Below are positions 1,579-13,052 of a stretch of DNA of 50,839 nt, one piece after another. Both the position numbers and the translations under genes were made by a program. Origin of the DNA: Desulfosporosinus nitroreducens (GTDB taxonomy: Bacteria; Bacillota; Desulfitobacteriia; Desulfitobacteriales; Desulfitobacteriaceae); NCBI RefSeq assembly GCF_023897015.1, contig NZ_JAMHFY010000034.1, positions 1-50,839 on the forward strand, read 5' to 3'. The notes under the pieces are model-generated. The model searched no databases. It saw only the letters and a list, made by a program, of their open reading frames with translations, and had not been told where the DNA came from. Each line of letters starts with the position of its first letter. The stretch's first letter is position 1.

Positions 1579-1632
1579 TTCAGCAAACCTTCAGTTTAGT
1601 TTCAGCCTCGTTTCAGTTTAGTATTGTAAAGT
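1579..1632 (+). promoter_or_regulatory. 11-bp phased TTCAG array and -10 element before the flxA-like gene
   Basis: TTCAG occurs four times, starting at 1579, 1590, 1601 and 1612, exactly 11 bp apart. TAAAGT at 1627-1632 is a plausible -10, starting 15 nt after the first base of the last repeat, and the gene starts at 1671. Direct repeats at 11-bp period are the usual binding pattern of OmpR/PhoB-family response regulators. The same layout appears before two other genes in this window. Confidence 0.65.
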
Positions 1633-1670: not shown

Positions 1671-2015
1671 ATGAATGTATCTTCAGTTTCTTCAACATCT
1701 AGTAACTCTTATACCTCCGGAAATGATAGTGATGTAAAACAACTACTAAATCGAATCAAACAACTTGAAAGCCAAATTGAAACTGAAACTCAGAGTAAGG
1801 ATGATGATAAAACAAAACAGGAAAAAATCCAATTATTACGAGTTCAGATAACTCAAATTCAAAACCAAATACAAGCAAAACAATCCACCCAAACTAGTAA
1901 TAGTGTACAAGAAGCTAACACTAACACTAACACTAACACTAACACTAACACTAACACTAACACTAACACTAACACTATTATTTTAAGCGATAACAAAATT
2001 GATATACAAGCTTAA
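1671..2015 (+). CDS. FlxA-like coiled-coil protein with NT dipeptide repeat
   Basis: This 114-residue protein has a Ser-rich N-terminus followed by about 60 residues of Gln/Lys/Glu/Ile-rich heptad-like sequence (LLNRIKQLESQIE, later IQLLRVQITQIQNQIQ), typical of the FlxA-like family (PF14282). Residues 83-102 are ten Asn-Thr dipeptides encoded by a hexanucleotide tandem repeat. No signal peptide or membrane segment is seen. The function of FlxA-like proteins is poorly known; in E. coli flxA is part of the flagellar regulon, but there are no flagellar genes here. GGGAGG about 11 nt upstream supports the start. It is a single-gene unit with its own promoter and terminator, lying between divergent mutM and convergent polA. 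Confidence 0.75.
   Translation: MNVSSVSSTSSNSYTSGNDSDVKQLLNRIKQLESQIETETQSKDDDKTKQEKIQLLRVQITQIQNQIQAKQSTQTSNSVQEANTNTNTNTNTNTNTNTNTNTIILSDNKIDIQA
1915..1976 (+). repeat. Ten-copy CTAACA tandem repeat inside a coding region
   Basis: Ten perfect copies of CTAACA (1915-1974) plus a partial unit encode the Asn-Thr run of the FlxA-like protein. The unit is a multiple of three, so copy-number change alters protein length without shifting frame. Confidence 0.95.
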
Positions 2016-6345: not shown

Positions 6346-6855
6346 TTAATCTGATTTCCTTTGCCCCCTCAAAATTCTAATGGAAAGATACATCCCCGAA
6401 ATGGTCAGGACGATCATACTAATTGCCGCTAGATCTATCACCCACGTGATGTTGAGATTACCAAGTTTACCTTCATGCAACCCTTTCACGAGGCCCATTA
6501 GACCATTATCTGCTTCATTTCTTGAACCTCCGCGTCTCGGAGCAATCGCTTCGGATTGAGTTTTCCCTTCCAGACTAGAACTTGGAGTATTAGAAACCGC
6601 AGAATTCTGACTTGATGAACTTTGATTTGTCGTTGATGTGCTCTGATTTGCTGTAGTCGGACCTTGATCTGAAGTTGGTATACTTTCATTACCTGAAGAA
6701 GTGGTCCTAGAATTCCCTTCGATAATTGGGGCTCTTGATTCCATTCCCATCAGTGAAGGATGTGCCAGCATTAATCCGGTTACAGCCTCCATGAGAATAA
6801 TGATTGAAGTGATTAATCCGATCCATAAGTGTAAATTGCGCATTTTACGAAACAT
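6346..6855 (-). CDS. PepSY-associated transmembrane protein
   Basis: This 169-residue protein has two hydrophobic segments, about residues 8-30 (LHLWIGLITSIIILMEAVTG) and 138-160 (VIDLAAISMIVLTISGMYLS). Between them is an extracytoplasmic region with a low-complexity Ser/Thr/Asn/Gln stretch (about 45-95) and a short GLHEGKLG segment. The HLWIG start, the GLHEGKLG segment and the Gly-rich second helix are typical of PepSY-associated TM proteins (PF03929-like). Their role is not settled; an effect on extracytoplasmic enzymes or metal handling has been proposed. GAGGGG about 9 nt upstream supports the start. Upstream lies a six-unit TTCAG array, which suggests control by the two-component system 3 kb away. 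Confidence 0.75.
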   Translation of the reverse strand: MFRKMRNLHLWIGLITSIIILMEAVTGLMLAHPSLMGMESRAPIIEGNSRTTSSGNESIPTSDQGPTTANQSTSTTNQSSSSQNSAVSNTPSSSLEGKTQSEAIAPRRGGSRNEADNGLMGLVKGLHEGKLGNLNITWVIDLAAISMIVLTISGMYLSIRILRGQRKSD

Positions 6856-6917: not shown

Positions 6918-6993
6918 ACTATAAATCCCGCTCCTGAATCATACCTAAATGCCACCTGAATGTTGATTGAGTGTTTCCTGAAAATCAGCTGAA
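6918..6993 (-). promoter_or_regulatory. Six-unit 11-bp phased TTCAG array and -10 before the PepSY gene
   Basis: On the plus strand the half-site complement CTGAA starts at 6934, 6956, 6978 and 6989, with degenerate copies at 6945 (CTAAA) and 6967 (TTGAG). All six fall on a strict 11-bp grid. On the minus strand this reads as TTCAG pointing toward the PepSY-type gene. TATAGT (minus strand, 6923-6918) is a -10 candidate, starting 15 nt after the first base of the proximal half-site. Confidence 0.7.
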
Positions 6994-7107
6994 ATGGCTC
7001 ATTCAATCCATAACATTTAGATTTGCTTTGGTTCCTAGATTTCTTGCGAAGTGCTATAATGTTCATAATCATTCAGCAATACTTCAGGTACAGATTAATC
7101 TTGATCC

Positions 7108-7222
7108 AATCGTGAGACTCCCATTTCTACAAATGGGCGTGGGACACCATGCTCAGCTTGGGTGGGGGTAGAGTCCCCCACCCAAGTCCCGATGTTTAAC
7201 TTTAGTTGAACGAGTTCACTCA
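7108..7222 (+). other. Cluster of three hairpins upstream of galE
   Basis: Three inverted repeats follow one another: CCCATTT/AAATGGG near 7108-7125; a perfect 12-bp stem (CTTGGGTGGGGG 7157-7168 with 7175-7186); and AGTTGA/TCAACT near 7203-7224. None has a terminal T-run. This could be a structured galE leader or the end of a decayed mobile element such as an IS200/IS605 type. Confidence 0.5.
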
Positions 7223-8477: not shown

Positions 8478-9980
8478 TTATTCTGGACAAGGCTGTGGAA
8501 ACCATACATAAAATGCGGTTCCACCCTCCGCAAAACTTTCCACTCGAATCGCGCCTCCATGAAGCTCCACAAGTGATTTAGTAATAGCAAGCCCTAATCC
8601 AGCTCCTCCATATTTGCGAGTCCTAGAAGAATCACTTCGATAAAAACGGTCAAATAATTTAGGCAAATGCTCCGAGGGTATGCCTGAACCGTTATCTCTT
8701 ACACTTAGCTCCACGCCGCCCGAAGCATTCTCCAAAGTAACTTGGATATCTCCTTGTTCAGGATCAGTATGCTGTACGGCATTATGAAAAAGATTCAAGA
8801 TAACTTGTTTCATTTTATCTTCATCAAAGCGACATCTCAAATTTGAAGTAAGTTTTAGACTGACTTTGCGATCCCCCGCTAATAACCTTAATTGCGGTGC
8901 CATGCCCTTAATGATCTCGTCCAGTTCTCCCTCAATAAGTTGGACGTTTGGTGAGCGATCTAACTTAGCAAGCTGAAGCAAATCTTGAATTAACTTTTTC
9001 ATCCGTTCAGATTCTGTATACATGCTTGTCAGAGATCTGTTCAATTTATCTGGCTGGTTCATAGCCCCACGAAGCAACACCTCTAAAAATCCGTGAATCG
9101 AGGTCAAAGGAGTACGAAGCTCATGAGAAGCATCGGCAACAAACTGCCGCATCCGTTCTTTTGCCTCTTTTTCGGCTTCAAAAGACGTTTCGAGTCTTTC
9201 AAGCATTCCATTAAACGAGTCTGCCAATCTGTCAATTTCTTCTTGCCCTTGATCACTCGGTAAACGTATAGCAAGATTTCCGGCGTCGATTTGTTCCACA
9301 GTCTCCACCATTTTAGACAAAGGAACCAACGTTTTTCTAAGTACAGAAATAAATGCTAACATACCTCCTATTAGAGCAAGCAAGGAGATCAATAAAAACG
9401 TTAATAATTGCCGAGTTAAAATATCCCTTAAAGGTTTTGTCTCTAAACTAACTTGAACTACTCCAAGCAATTGATCTCTAATCTTAATTGGCTGAAGTAC
9501 GATCAATTGCTCGTTTGACGTGGCTTGTTCCATGACTTTATATGTCACTTCACGTTTGGAACCCAGGGCAGCTTGATAATCTTTTTCATCAAGCGTAGGA
9601 GGGGCTTGACCATCTATAGAAGCATTCGAAAGGACTGATAAGGTTCCGGACGTATCATAAAAGGCAATTATGGAGTCTTGCAAGAAGAAAATGGGAGTAC
9701 GACTGCGACCATGGCTGTCACCAAATTGTCTGTCACCCCAAGCATCTCCTGTTGCATTACCAGTCATTTTATCGGGACCCTCATCTTTAATGTCCCACGC
9801 TGATCTCTCCCAGGCGTCGGGAGGAATCGCCAGAATCTGACTTTGTATACTCGATGCTGTATTTTTATATAAAAATCCGCGCATGAAGACATATTGGAAT
9901 AAGCCGATAATCACCAGTAACCCAGCCATAAGCAATAACGAACGAGCTAAGAGCTGAAAGCGAAGTGAGTTTGTTTTCAT
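8478..9980 (-). CDS. Sensor histidine kinase (HAMP, class I)
   Basis: This 500-residue membrane kinase is the partner of the response regulator just upstream. Its order is TM1 (about 11-34), an extracytoplasmic sensor region of about 155 residues containing PIFFLQDSIIAFYD (around 96-109), TM2 (about 192-214), HAMP, the dimerisation/phosphoacceptor domain with SHELRTPLTSIHG (His286), then the ATPase domain with an N box (NLFHNAVQHTD), DNGSGIP and GGAGLGLAITKS. The kinase start and the regulator stop overlap, indicating translational coupling. The signal is unknown. Terminator hairpins follow the gene. Confidence 0.95.
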   Translation of the reverse strand: MKTNSLRFQLLARSLLLMAGLLVIIGLFQYVFMRGFLYKNTASSIQSQILAIPPDAWERSAWDIKDEGPDKMTGNATGDAWGDRQFGDSHGRSRTPIFFLQDSIIAFYDTSGTLSVLSNASIDGQAPPTLDEKDYQAALGSKREVTYKVMEQATSNEQLIVLQPIKIRDQLLGVVQVSLETKPLRDILTRQLLTFLLISLLALIGGMLAFISVLRKTLVPLSKMVETVEQIDAGNLAIRLPSDQGQEEIDRLADSFNGMLERLETSFEAEKEAKERMRQFVADASHELRTPLTSIHGFLEVLLRGAMNQPDKLNRSLTSMYTESERMKKLIQDLLQLAKLDRSPNVQLIEGELDEIIKGMAPQLRLLAGDRKVSLKLTSNLRCRFDEDKMKQVILNLFHNAVQHTDPEQGDIQVTLENASGGVELSVRDNGSGIPSEHLPKLFDRFYRSDSSRTRKYGGAGLGLAITKSLVELHGGAIRVESFAEGGTAFYVWFPQPCPE

Positions 9981-10660
9981 TACAGGTCAACCCGATATCC
10001 CGCTCCGCGCAAGGTACGAATTAAACGGTGTTCTTTATCATTTAATTTTTCCCTGAGCGACCGAATATACACCTCTACAATATTTTCATCCCCGCCAAAG
10101 TCATAGCCCCATACCTTATCTAAAATTTTGGCTTTGCTTAAAACCAAGCCATGATTAAGCACTAAAAATTTAAGCAACTCATACTCAGTGGTTGAGAGTT
10201 CTAAAACCCTTTGCTCATAAAGGATTTCCTTGCGCCGATCGTCAATTCGGAAAGCTCCTAGTTCGACCTCTCCTATTAGATTGGGAAACTGGTTCCGTAT
10301 TCTAGCCTGAATACGTGCCAGCAATTCCTCAAAGCTAAAGGGTTTCATCATATAGTCATCAGCACCGATCGTTAGTCCTTTCACTCGGTCATCAACTTCG
10401 TCTTTAGCTGTCAACATAATAATAGCCACATTCTCAGTTTTCTTGAGCATTCGGCATACTTCAAATCCGTCCATGCCTGGCATCATGACATCCAGAATAA
10501 TTAGATGGGGCTGAAATTGCTTAGCCAGTGTTACCGCTGTCATTCCATCCTGAGCTGTTTGTACCTCAAACCCTTCCTCTTGAAGACCCATTTCTAGGAA
10601 TTGCAAAATATTCGGCTCATCATCGACTAGCAATAGTTTAATTCCCTTTAATTTCTGCAT
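9980..10660 (-). CDS. OmpR/PhoB-family response regulator
   Basis: This 226-residue DNA-binding regulator has an N-terminal receiver domain (DDEP acidic pair D13/D14; phosphoacceptor D57 in LIILDVMMPGMDG; LTAKDE; MMKPF lysine) and a C-terminal winged helix (STTEYELLKFLVLNHG; ENIVEVYIRSLREKL; IRTLRGAGYRVDL). Family members bind 11-bp direct repeats as head-to-tail dimers. AAAGGAG precedes the ATG. Its own promoter carries four TTCAG-type half-sites at 11-bp spacing, which suggests positive autoregulation, and the same motif precedes the PepSY-type and flxA-like genes. It is the first gene of a two-gene operon with the kinase. Confidence 0.96.
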   Translation of the reverse strand: MQKLKGIKLLLVDDEPNILQFLEMGLQEEGFEVQTAQDGMTAVTLAKQFQPHLIILDVMMPGMDGFEVCRMLKKTENVAIIMLTAKDEVDDRVKGLTIGADDYMMKPFSFEELLARIQARIRNQFPNLIGEVELGAFRIDDRRKEILYEQRVLELSTTEYELLKFLVLNHGLVLSKAKILDKVWGYDFGGDENIVEVYIRSLREKLNDKEHRLIRTLRGAGYRVDL

Positions 10661-10702: not shown

Positions 10703-10756
10703 ATTATGCAATATCAGGTTGAATTCAAACTGAAGAAAAGCTGAAAGTTTCCTGAA
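10703..10756 (-). promoter_or_regulatory. 11-bp phased TTCAG array and -10 before the response regulator
   Basis: Plus-strand CTGAA starts at 10730, 10741 and 10752, with TTGAA at 10719: four half-sites on an exact 11-bp grid, reading TTCAG toward the regulator gene on the minus strand. CATAAT (minus strand, 10708-10703) is a -10 candidate, starting 15 nt after the first base of the proximal half-site, the same spacing as at the two other arrays. Confidence 0.7.
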
Positions 10757-10963: not shown

Positions 10964-12511
10964 CTATTTAATTCTAATATCAAACTCACCCGTAATCCGA
11001 CTTGGATAATCCTGAATTTGGAATGTGATCGGAGATTGGTAAGATTGGTTATCCGGGAGAGTTAGCCATAAGGTTTTATCATACCCTGGTTTGTCAGAGT
11101 GGGTTGCTGTACTTTGCCCTTTAATCTCGAATGAATTCCCTCGCGCATCGATGAATTCGAAGGGAAATACACAAAATCCACGTTTTTCATCGTACAAAGG
11201 ATTAGTTTTCAGGGAGAAGATTAGCTCCTTTTCCTTTTCTGAGGAATTCTTAATTACATTGTCAAGCACAAGGTTTGGCGGGCCAACAAGGATTCTTTCT
11301 TGTTCAAGATCCAGAGTAATCCTTAAACTCTCCTTATCCATAGCGCGGAGACTTTTTCCTTGTAAAAAGAGTTTTCTGGATTGGGTAAAATAGGTGCTCT
11401 GGAAGAAAAGAATCACGCGGTTCTCATCTGGATAGCTGCCACTCACTCCGTTTATGATACTACCCCACTCTTCCCCTTCTTCATTGACGAGAGTTAGATC
11501 ATCAAAGGCAAAGATCTTTTTGCTATTCGCTGGATCATAGGATACATTCAGGGCCATGCGCGTCGGGTAAACAGTAACCTTTTCAAATGTAATTCTTTGC
11601 CCTTCAATAACTACACTCTGGTTGACTTCATAGACCGTCTTCATCCCAACAAACTTATCTTTGTCCACAGGAATTGTGATTTCCCAAGTTGAAGGAAGTT
11701 GAGAGGAAGGATCGAAGGGAACATCTTGGAATATTTCACGAAGCTTCACTTTTAAGGACAGTCGATTTGGAATCACAGTATTGTCATAAAAGTTGACATT
11801 AATTCGAGACTGAATCTTGCCATCGCCATCCTCATCAGGCTCACCAGAGCTACTGTGACCGATAGAAATCTCCTTCAGAGGCTCACCCATTTCATCAAAG
11901 AGCCTAACTTCGGAAAAATCAAAGGTGCCTTCTCCCCTTTTGTTTTCCACCGTGTAGAATATGACTAGGCTTGCCTCATCCATAATGATTCCATCGACGG
12001 TAAACACGATATTCTCATGTTCTTCTGAGACCCCTAGGGGTAGGATAAAATCATTCTCCACTGCGGATTGAAGTCCTTTATCATAGTTTATAAGTTCAAC
12101 GATATAACCCAGACCTGGTATTTGATGCAATACAGCCGCAACAGCTGGAGAAACCCGAGCAGTCGTAATGAAGGCGACCATCAGAAAACATGCCACGAGA
12201 GTAGTCCATTTGCGGAAATGCCATACCTTTTGGGCTTTTATTCCCTTAGTTAAACCTTTTTGAATATGATCATCGAGTTCAGTGGGGATAGGCATGTCAG
12301 CAACCCGAGGCGTAGCTTGAATCAGTTGATCATGAACTTGATTGACTCCATCTTCAAGTTCATGAAAAGCATTAAACTCATTCATTAATTTTTCCAAGTC
12401 GTCCATTGTATCCGACTCATCCATCTTAACAGATTCATCCATCGTTTCTGAGTTGCTTAAAATCCTCTTTTTCCCCTCATGGCTCTCATCAAGTTCTTTT
12501 CGATCAAACAT
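10964..12511 (-). CDS. DUF4179 anti-sigma factor
   Basis: Predicted membrane-anchored regulator of the ECF sigma factor encoded just upstream. The 515-residue protein has an acidic cytoplasmic N-terminus (about 1-100, rich in Met-Asp-Glu-Ser), one membrane helix (about 106-122, TTLVACFLMVAF), and a large external region beginning with the DUF4179 segment (SPAVAAVLHQIPGLGYIVELIN). Such proteins usually sequester their sigma factor at the membrane until an envelope signal releases it. The start overlaps the sigma gene by 8 nt, indicating coupled translation. No zinc-binding HxxxCxxC motif is seen, so it is not of the ZAS type. The inducing signal is unknown. Confidence 0.88.
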   Translation of the reverse strand: MFDRKELDESHEGKKRILSNSETMDESVKMDESDTMDDLEKLMNEFNAFHELEDGVNQVHDQLIQATPRVADMPIPTELDDHIQKGLTKGIKAQKVWHFRKWTTLVACFLMVAFITTARVSPAVAAVLHQIPGLGYIVELINYDKGLQSAVENDFILPLGVSEEHENIVFTVDGIIMDEASLVIFYTVENKRGEGTFDFSEVRLFDEMGEPLKEISIGHSSSGEPDEDGDGKIQSRINVNFYDNTVIPNRLSLKVKLREIFQDVPFDPSSQLPSTWEITIPVDKDKFVGMKTVYEVNQSVVIEGQRITFEKVTVYPTRMALNVSYDPANSKKIFAFDDLTLVNEEGEEWGSIINGVSGSYPDENRVILFFQSTYFTQSRKLFLQGKSLRAMDKESLRITLDLEQERILVGPPNLVLDNVIKNSSEKEKELIFSLKTNPLYDEKRGFCVFPFEFIDARGNSFEIKGQSTATHSDKPGYDKTLWLTLPDNQSYQSPITFQIQDYPSRITGEFDIRIK

Positions 12512-13052
12512 GACTGTCCCCCCTCTCTTGAAGATATTCTTTAAGCAGTTTAAATGACTGGAATAACCAGGTTTTGATCGTCCCTTCAGGTCGTTCTAAA
12601 ACCACAGCAATTTGTTGAATCGTTAAATCCTCAAAGTACTTCAGTTCAATAACCTGACGATATCTGAGATCGAGACGATCGAGGGCCTCTAGAATATCCA
12701 GACGTTGCAAATCTGCCCTTCCCCCCGGTTCAGTTGAGTCATCTAAGGCTGTCAATTTATACTGAATAACCTCACCAGTCAAAGGGAGTTGGACTCTAAG
12801 CCGTTTTAACTCGTCGTTACAGGCATTAATTAGGATGCGAATAAGCCAGGTCTGAAAGTATTTAGGTTCCTTAAGTTTATGTATGCTGCGGTAAGCACGA
12901 TAGGTCATTTCTTGAATAGCCTCGAGTGCATCCTGTTCACTCTTCAAATACCGAAAAGCAATCCGATATAGCTGATGCTTATGAAGATTTATAAGCTCGT
13001 AAAAAGCCTCAGCATCTCCTCTTATTGCTGCGACAATGGTTTGCGCTTCCAT
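12504..13052 (-). CDS. ECF-type RNA polymerase sigma factor
   Basis: This 182-residue alternative sigma factor has region 2 (about 18-85, with IAFRYLKSEQDALEAIQEM and FQTWLIRILINACND) and region 4 (about 118-175, RYRQVIELKYFEDLTIQQIA then PEGTIKTWLFQSFKLLK). Regions 1 and 3 are missing, as expected for ECF factors. It pairs with the overlapping DUF4179 anti-sigma gene downstream, a common Firmicute arrangement. The ATG has GAGGTGAGC in front. A 12-bp direct repeat lies just upstream in what should be the promoter region. Target genes are unknown. Confidence 0.95.
   Translation of the reverse strand: MEAQTIVAAIRGDAEAFYELINLHKHQLYRIAFRYLKSEQDALEAIQEMTYRAYRSIHKLKEPKYFQTWLIRILINACNDELKRLRVQLPLTGEVIQYKLTALDDSTEPGGRADLQRLDILEALDRLDLRYRQVIELKYFEDLTIQQIAVVLERPEGTIKTWLFQSFKLLKEYLQERGDSHV

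Follow-up and report, generated by a model that had tools for sequence, protein, structure and literature searches.

The locus raises the question of whether regularly spaced copies of one pentamer, found ahead of three genes, are the operators of a response regulator encoded behind one of them, and what such a circuit would control. The window, that is, the whole stretch of 50,839 nucleotides analysed here from Desulfosporosinus nitroreducens, carries a two-component system and three arrays of TTCAG-like half-sites, each with a -10 element, as follows.

1579-1616, plus strand: candidate operator array of the FlxA-like gene, four TTCAG at 1579, 1590, 1601 and 1612, 11-bp spacing
1627-1632, plus strand: TAAAGT, -10 element of the FlxA-like promoter, offset 15
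1671-2015, plus strand: FlxA-like protein, 114 aa, predicted target, of a family that recurs behind arrays across the genus
6346-6855, minus strand: PepSY_TM protein, 169 aa, predicted target, with two predicted TM segments and a Ser/Thr/Asn-rich loop
6918-6923, minus strand: TATAGT, -10 element of the PepSY_TM promoter, offset 15
6934-6993, minus strand: candidate operator array of the PepSY_TM gene, six half-sites, TTCAG-TTCAG-CTCAA-TTCAG-TTTAG-TTCAG
8478-9980, minus strand: sensor histidine kinase with HAMP, HisKA and HATPase_c domains and two predicted TM segments
9980-10660, minus strand: response regulator (RR) of the OmpR/PhoB family, likely activator at the arrays, with PF00072 receiver and PF00486 Trans_reg_C winged helix above the cut-off
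10703-10708, minus strand: CATAAT, -10 element of the RR promoter, offset 15 nt from the first base of TTCAA
10719-10756, minus strand: candidate operator array of the RR gene, TTCAG, TTCAG, TTCAG, TTCAA, 11-bp spacing

On the minus strand ahead of the RR gene, TTCAG occupies 10752-10756, 10741-10745 and 10730-10734 and TTCAA occupies 10719-10723, with a period of exactly 11 bp. An earlier note on this DNA had described these four half-sites and the CATAAT at offset 15, and its coordinates are confirmed, as is its assignment of the genes behind them to an OmpR/PhoB-type regulator with an adjoining kinase, on the strength of Pfam domains above the cut-off. At 17-bp spacing from CATAAT the RR promoter reads AGTTTG, without a -35 match. 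The start codon of the kinase and the stop codon of the RR overlap by one base, and the phospho-acceptor D57 of the RR is present in all 33 close orthologues. The FlxA-like and PepSY_TM promoters do share motif, period and a -10 offset of 15 with the RR promoter, as had been claimed, and two of the six PepSY_TM half-sites are degenerate (CTCAA and TTTAG), a feature that the earlier description did not contain.

Some further features of the window lie close to these genes. Between the PepSY_TM array and a GalE-like gene stand two TTCAG 11 bp apart (7072-7087, plus strand), by eye without an in-register -10 element, and a perfect 12-nt inverted repeat with a 6-nt loop (7157-7186) lies between the PepSY_TM and GalE-like genes. 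The PepSY_TM array (6934-6993) closely resembles one on contig 7 of the same genome (33697-33761, before a 208-aa protein), as if a promoter had been duplicated. The FlxA-like ORF contains ten tandem copies of AACACT (1917-1976), giving an Asn-Thr repeat whose length may differ among strains. Immediately upstream of the RR operon (10964-13052, minus strand), an ECF-type sigma factor and a DUF4179/DUF5643 anti-sigma-like protein are encoded, possibly a second envelope-stress switch beside the RR system.

To judge from pattern counts, the arrays are not due to chance. Three TTCAR at 11-bp spacing match the window four times, with overlapping matches counted and in two of its three arrays. One hundred dinucleotide shuffles gave a mean of 0.01 and in no case as many as four. 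Such triples give eight matches at four places in the whole genome (5.46 Mb), two of these places being in the window and one each on contigs 12 and 30, and the reversed pattern gives two matches. Across 29 genomes of the genus there are 140 triples at 11 bp, found in 24 of the 29, versus 16 for the reversed control, compared with 13 versus 12 at 10 bp and 70 versus 45 at 12 bp. One genome contributes 22 of the 70 triples at 12 bp, 20 of those in a single tandem block, and because 12 bp is a multiple of three, coding repeats may account for the excess at this spacing. A pattern constrained by a -10 element, with 21 matches in 11 of the 29 genomes and one for the reversed control, was too narrow, and the unconstrained pattern was used instead. 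A looser scan of the own genome, for two half-sites and TATAAT with 2 mismatches, returned 14 matches against 8 for its reversed control, so new sites were accepted only with additional in-register half-sites and a well-placed gene; one site on contig 7 (C7) and one on contig 33 (C33) were added in this way, the PepSY_TM array of the window was likewise retained, and five others (L235, L236, L238, L242, L245) were discarded as lying inside a possible reading frame. The genus survey took in the window and 63 stretches around triples, apart from RR promoters already obtained and a TTCAA-only triple (G013:C260). Of the resulting 68 arrays, 2 lie within long ORFs and 8 are without an ORF of at least 50 aa inside 350 nt downstream.

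The arrays also keep a preferred distance to the promoter. Among the 66 that lie outside ORFs, strong -10-like hexamers occur at offset 15 in 33 cases and at offset 26, which is offset 15 plus one helical period, in 12, with at most 8 at any other offset. When the best -10 element is sought between 10 and 42 nt, 37 of the 66 arrays have it in register and the other 29 do not. Comparison of the -35 position with TTGACA gives on average 1.97 matching bases of 6 versus 2.48 of 6 at random, and since this is no better than random, indeed below it, the promoters look regulator-dependent.

The association of the array with the RR extends well beyond the genus. Of the 40 rows of one clade (support 100/99) in a tree of 105 RRs, 35 have at least two TTCAR at 11 bp ahead of the RR gene, whereas no such run precedes it in the 65 remaining rows; the best -10 element is in register in 28 of those 35 promoters. 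Named members with the run come from Desulfosporosinus, Desulforamulus, Paradesulfitobacterium, Moorella, Ectobacillus, Brevibacillus, Cohnella and five Paenibacillus. The exact run is absent upstream of the RR in five clade rows (L031, L033, L034, L156, L166), in one of which, L156, this region has a pair of TTCAG on its other strand. Left out of the tree were L021 (internal stop), L025 and L030 (cut by contig ends), L155 (stop at codon 3) and L038; L021, L025 and L030 carry arrays of four half-sites, and L155 is without the exact run. The interrupted RR frames thus occur in two relatives, L021 (from genome G021) and L155 (from Paenibacillus popilliae). Within the genus, the array of the RR promoter is kept while its flanks diverge, and in a clade 53% identical to the RR, TTCAR pairs occur in four of seven rows. 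Together with the window counts, the contrast between 35 of 40 and 0 of 65 rows bears out the claim that the common geometry exceeds chance.

Presence of the array can likewise be compared with presence of the regulator in 73 genomes from the order, an RR orthologue being defined by at least 64% identity. Of the 37 genomes with such an orthologue, 32 have strict TTCAG triples, compared with 7 of the 36 that lack one (Fisher p 6e-9); outside the genus the figures are 10 of 13 and 5 of 31 (p 2e-4). Both p-values are optimistic because rows and genomes are related. With overlapping triples counted, the RR-bearing genomes hold 132 and the RR-less 8, and the reversed pattern occurs 7 times overall. 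Five RR-bearing genomes lack a strict triple, and two of them, G006 and G007, have runs of two together with one CTCAG. G056, counted as RR-less, has a partial close RR match at a contig end, and G013, in which an array is present and the RR was not found, is 67% complete. In these comparisons, the array goes with the RR across species.

The candidate regulon is larger than first proposed. The earlier note had limited it to the three promoters of the window, and these stand, whereas the limit does not, as at least seven candidate promoters are predicted in the own genome. The array on contig 12 precedes a VTC-domain gene followed by two ORFs in the same direction, which we take to encode a DUF4956-like protein and a repetitive beta-helix protein; that on contig 30 precedes the gene for a secreted-looking protein with weak DUF2680 repeats, that on contig 7 the 208-aa protein, which has no Pfam match, and that on contig 33 a DUF4405 protein. 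Of 60 proteins behind arrays in the genus, 50 fall into 11 groups and 10 are singletons. Families were assigned by Pfam for at least one member of each group (20 proteins and others), with the remaining members placed by BLAST similarity. The groups are these.

FlxA-like: 9 members
DUF2680-type: 9 members
RR: 7 members, namely the RR itself, a different RR and one fragment
VTC: 5 members
HlyD-type adaptors: 5 members, plus 2 at 422-470 nt
125-aa family with no assigned name: 3 members
Secreted: 3 members, with fn3 in both of those scanned and a pro-kumamolisin domain in one
DUF4405: 3 members
Smaller DUF4405-like: 2 members, the scanned one slightly under the cut-off
Trypsin-like: 2 members
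Spo0E-like: 2 members

Across the genus, the arrays do not stand at random places, the outcome that the earlier note would have taken as a refutation: 2 of 68 lie in a long ORF, and 50 of the 60 with a downstream ORF lead a family seen behind at least two arrays. In one relative (L096, from genome G012), array-bearing genes of the FlxA-like, small DUF4405-like and DUF2680 families are all found no further than about 7 kb from the RR, and none shares its array with another. Arrays near 15 named orthologues (L152-L166) were chosen by a loose rule without a background estimate, and Pfam was run on seven genes behind them, that of L161 being left out: YceI was found twice (Brevibacillus and Paenibacillus), an HlyD-type adaptor in Cohnella and an HtrA-like protease in Paradesulfitobacterium, and three genes had no family. 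The recurrent families behind the arrays, such as DUF2680, HlyD-type adaptors, HtrA-like proteases, DUF4405 and FlxA-like proteins, are mostly membrane, secreted or envelope proteins, so the circuit is most likely an envelope-stress response, perhaps to acid or antimicrobials.

It is highly probable, judging from these sequence comparisons, that the arrays are operators of the RR encoded at 9980-10660, which would activate an envelope regulon, its own operon included, through a phosphorelay and cooperative binding. An extracellular signal would cause the kinase (8478-9980) to phosphorylate the RR, and the phosphorylated RR would assemble cooperatively, head-to-tail, along two to six half-sites, forming a tandem oligomer that follows a single face of the DNA. 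Its last protomers would come to sit where a -35 element would be and hold RNA polymerase at the -10 element, switching transcription on, and as the RR-kinase operon carries an array of its own, the system would amplify itself. For the signal, an AlphaFold2 model of kinase residues 1-275 (27 sequences) reaches a moderate mean pLDDT of 72, and its best match in a structure search is a WalK model (E 1.3e-6, TM 0.54), with Cache-type chemoreceptor domains also matching at low TM-scores. We read the extracellular part of the model as one PAS/Cache-like domain; the WalK and Cache matches are too general for the signal to be named from the sensor domain.

The half-sites stand just upstream of the -10 element, and from there a protein bound to them could also obstruct RNA polymerase; MprAB of M. 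tuberculosis is described as acting both ways at one operon (PMC5855569, in excerpt). However, the preferred 15-nt register and the lack of a -35 element fit recruitment, and a repressor needs neither. In SARP activators with an OmpR-like domain the last 11-bp repeat lies 8 bp from the -10 element, and in one of them, AfsR, the repeats overlap the -35 region and region 4 of sigma is engaged (PMC10936776, as far as its text was available), so that such a geometry can serve an activator. That the RR binds the arrays and represses, or does both, by covering the -35 region is accordingly given a small probability. A slightly smaller one falls to the possibility that a different regulator of the cell, for instance a paralogous RR, acts at the arrays and that the RR is simply one of its targets. 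The genome does encode 78 first-look candidate relatives of the RR, and an array lies ahead of a different RR gene in two genomes (L099 and L113, with Pfam run on L099), but the array tracks the RR across Bacillota, including the more distant clade at 53% identity, and the PhoP sister clade discussed below has repeats of equal period ahead of its own RR gene. That the repeats are chance or low-complexity sequence with no function is scarcely credible: triples at 12-bp spacing exist too, 70 of them in 29 genomes against 45 for the reversed pattern, but the shuffle expectation for the window, the near absence of arrays from long ORFs and the association with the RR clade all stand against it.

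If the arrays are indeed activating operators of the RR, its relatives may indicate how they are read. The closest solved RR by sequence is PhoP of M. tuberculosis (196 bits), and the tree joins the Bacillota clade with actinobacterial PhoP as its sister, on a branch with support of 93/76, which lies under the tool's star. The sister-clade member L181 matches M. tuberculosis PhoP at 439 bits; the actinobacterial relatives had at first been read as MprA, a reading dropped when a PDB comparison of L181, the one row of 21 so examined, pointed to PhoP. In the 21 actinobacterial promoters, identical 4-mers at a lag of 11 number 63, versus 8 to 32 at 13 other lags, with ACAG leading, and an exact run of two NACAG occurs in 8 of the 21. 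In the published PhoP operator, TCACAGC is repeated directly with a spacer of strictly 4 bp, and PhoP binds more tightly to three or four repeats; base contacts are made by N212, V213, E215, S216, Y217 and Y220, with N212 reading C7 and A8, E215 facing the G9 and C10 pairs, S216 near A6 and V213 at C5 (PMC4832192, in the part accessible). The CAG common to both half-sites thus comprises the bases read by N212 and E215.

At the six contact positions the RR of the window has N, I, E, V, Y and S, so that three of the six are kept. The equivalents of N212, E215 and Y217 are N, E and Y in all 40 Bacillota rows; among the 21 PhoP rows, N212 is N in 17 and G in 4, and E215 and Y217 are invariant. At the S216 position, all 40 Bacillota rows and 26 of 44 other RRs have V, which may represent the older state, whereas the 21 PhoP rows have S (19) or T (2). 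The V213 position is I in 39 of 40 Bacillota rows. At the Y220 position, 32 of 33 close orthologues have S, and all seven rows of the 53% clade have Y. The bases that differ, CA in PhoP and TT here, seem to face residue positions that differ as well, a pattern that is only correlative, given the G at N212 in some PhoP rows and the frequency of V in other RRs.

The broadest proposal that follows, which we consider evenly poised between right and wrong, is of a widespread envelope-stress circuit of Bacillota on a sister lineage of PhoP, in which the 11-bp geometry and the CAG-reading residues would have been kept, the bases before CAG (TT versus CA) and the helix positions facing them (I/V at 213, V/S at 216 and, in most, S/Y at 220) would differ, and the number of half-sites, from two to six, would set the gain at each target. 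If true, it would provide a natural specificity code for OmpR-type regulators that is both readable and testable, the comparison with PhoP offering a simple test of which recognition-helix residues select the half-site. For its part, a conserved Bacillota regulator gains a defined candidate operator, a promoter rule (11-bp half-sites with the -10 element at +15) and a candidate regulon, and the small orphan families DUF2680, DUF4405, FlxA-like, PepSY_TM and VTC are tied to one likely envelope circuit.

The circuit seems to be undescribed. A literature search, to which subscription papers were mostly closed, returned, among the matches listed, no two-component system with a TTCAG operator and no study of the system analysed here; one match to the motif was AfsR, in which TTCAGC is the -35 element. 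The statement of the earlier note that it knew of no described system with this motif and gene set holds as far as this search reaches, while the motif is less isolated than had been supposed, since the PhoP relative had been missed and the published operator of this sister clade has the same 11-bp period.

Three known systems invite comparison. The SARP activators, such as AfsR of Streptomyces, share with the Desulfosporosinus system an OmpR-like DNA-binding domain and 11-bp repeats but, unlike the RR, are not two-component regulators, and both their regulation and their targets are different. The CiaRH-type systems (BAS0540-BAS0541 of Bacillus anthracis and CiaRH of Streptococcus) are similar in having an OmpR-type RR, 11-bp direct repeats and predicted autoregulation, with an RND-type adaptor among the predicted targets and HtrA in the streptococcal regulon; the CiaR consensus NTTAAG-N5-TTTAAG, with a 5-bp gap (PMC4938410, partial text), is however not matched by the TTCAR half-sites found here. 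PhoPR resembles the Desulfosporosinus system in its direct-repeat operator, 11-bp period and CAG-reading residues, and PhoP autoregulation through direct repeats is reported in a title in the reference list of PMC3353115. It differs in the half-site, TCACAGC versus TTCAG, and in its gene set, the candidate set here being envelope-centred, unlike that of PhoPR, whose kinase PhoR senses acid and salt (PMC10723718, in excerpt). By analogy, the system would resemble CiaR in its logic and PhoP of M. tuberculosis in the way it reads DNA.
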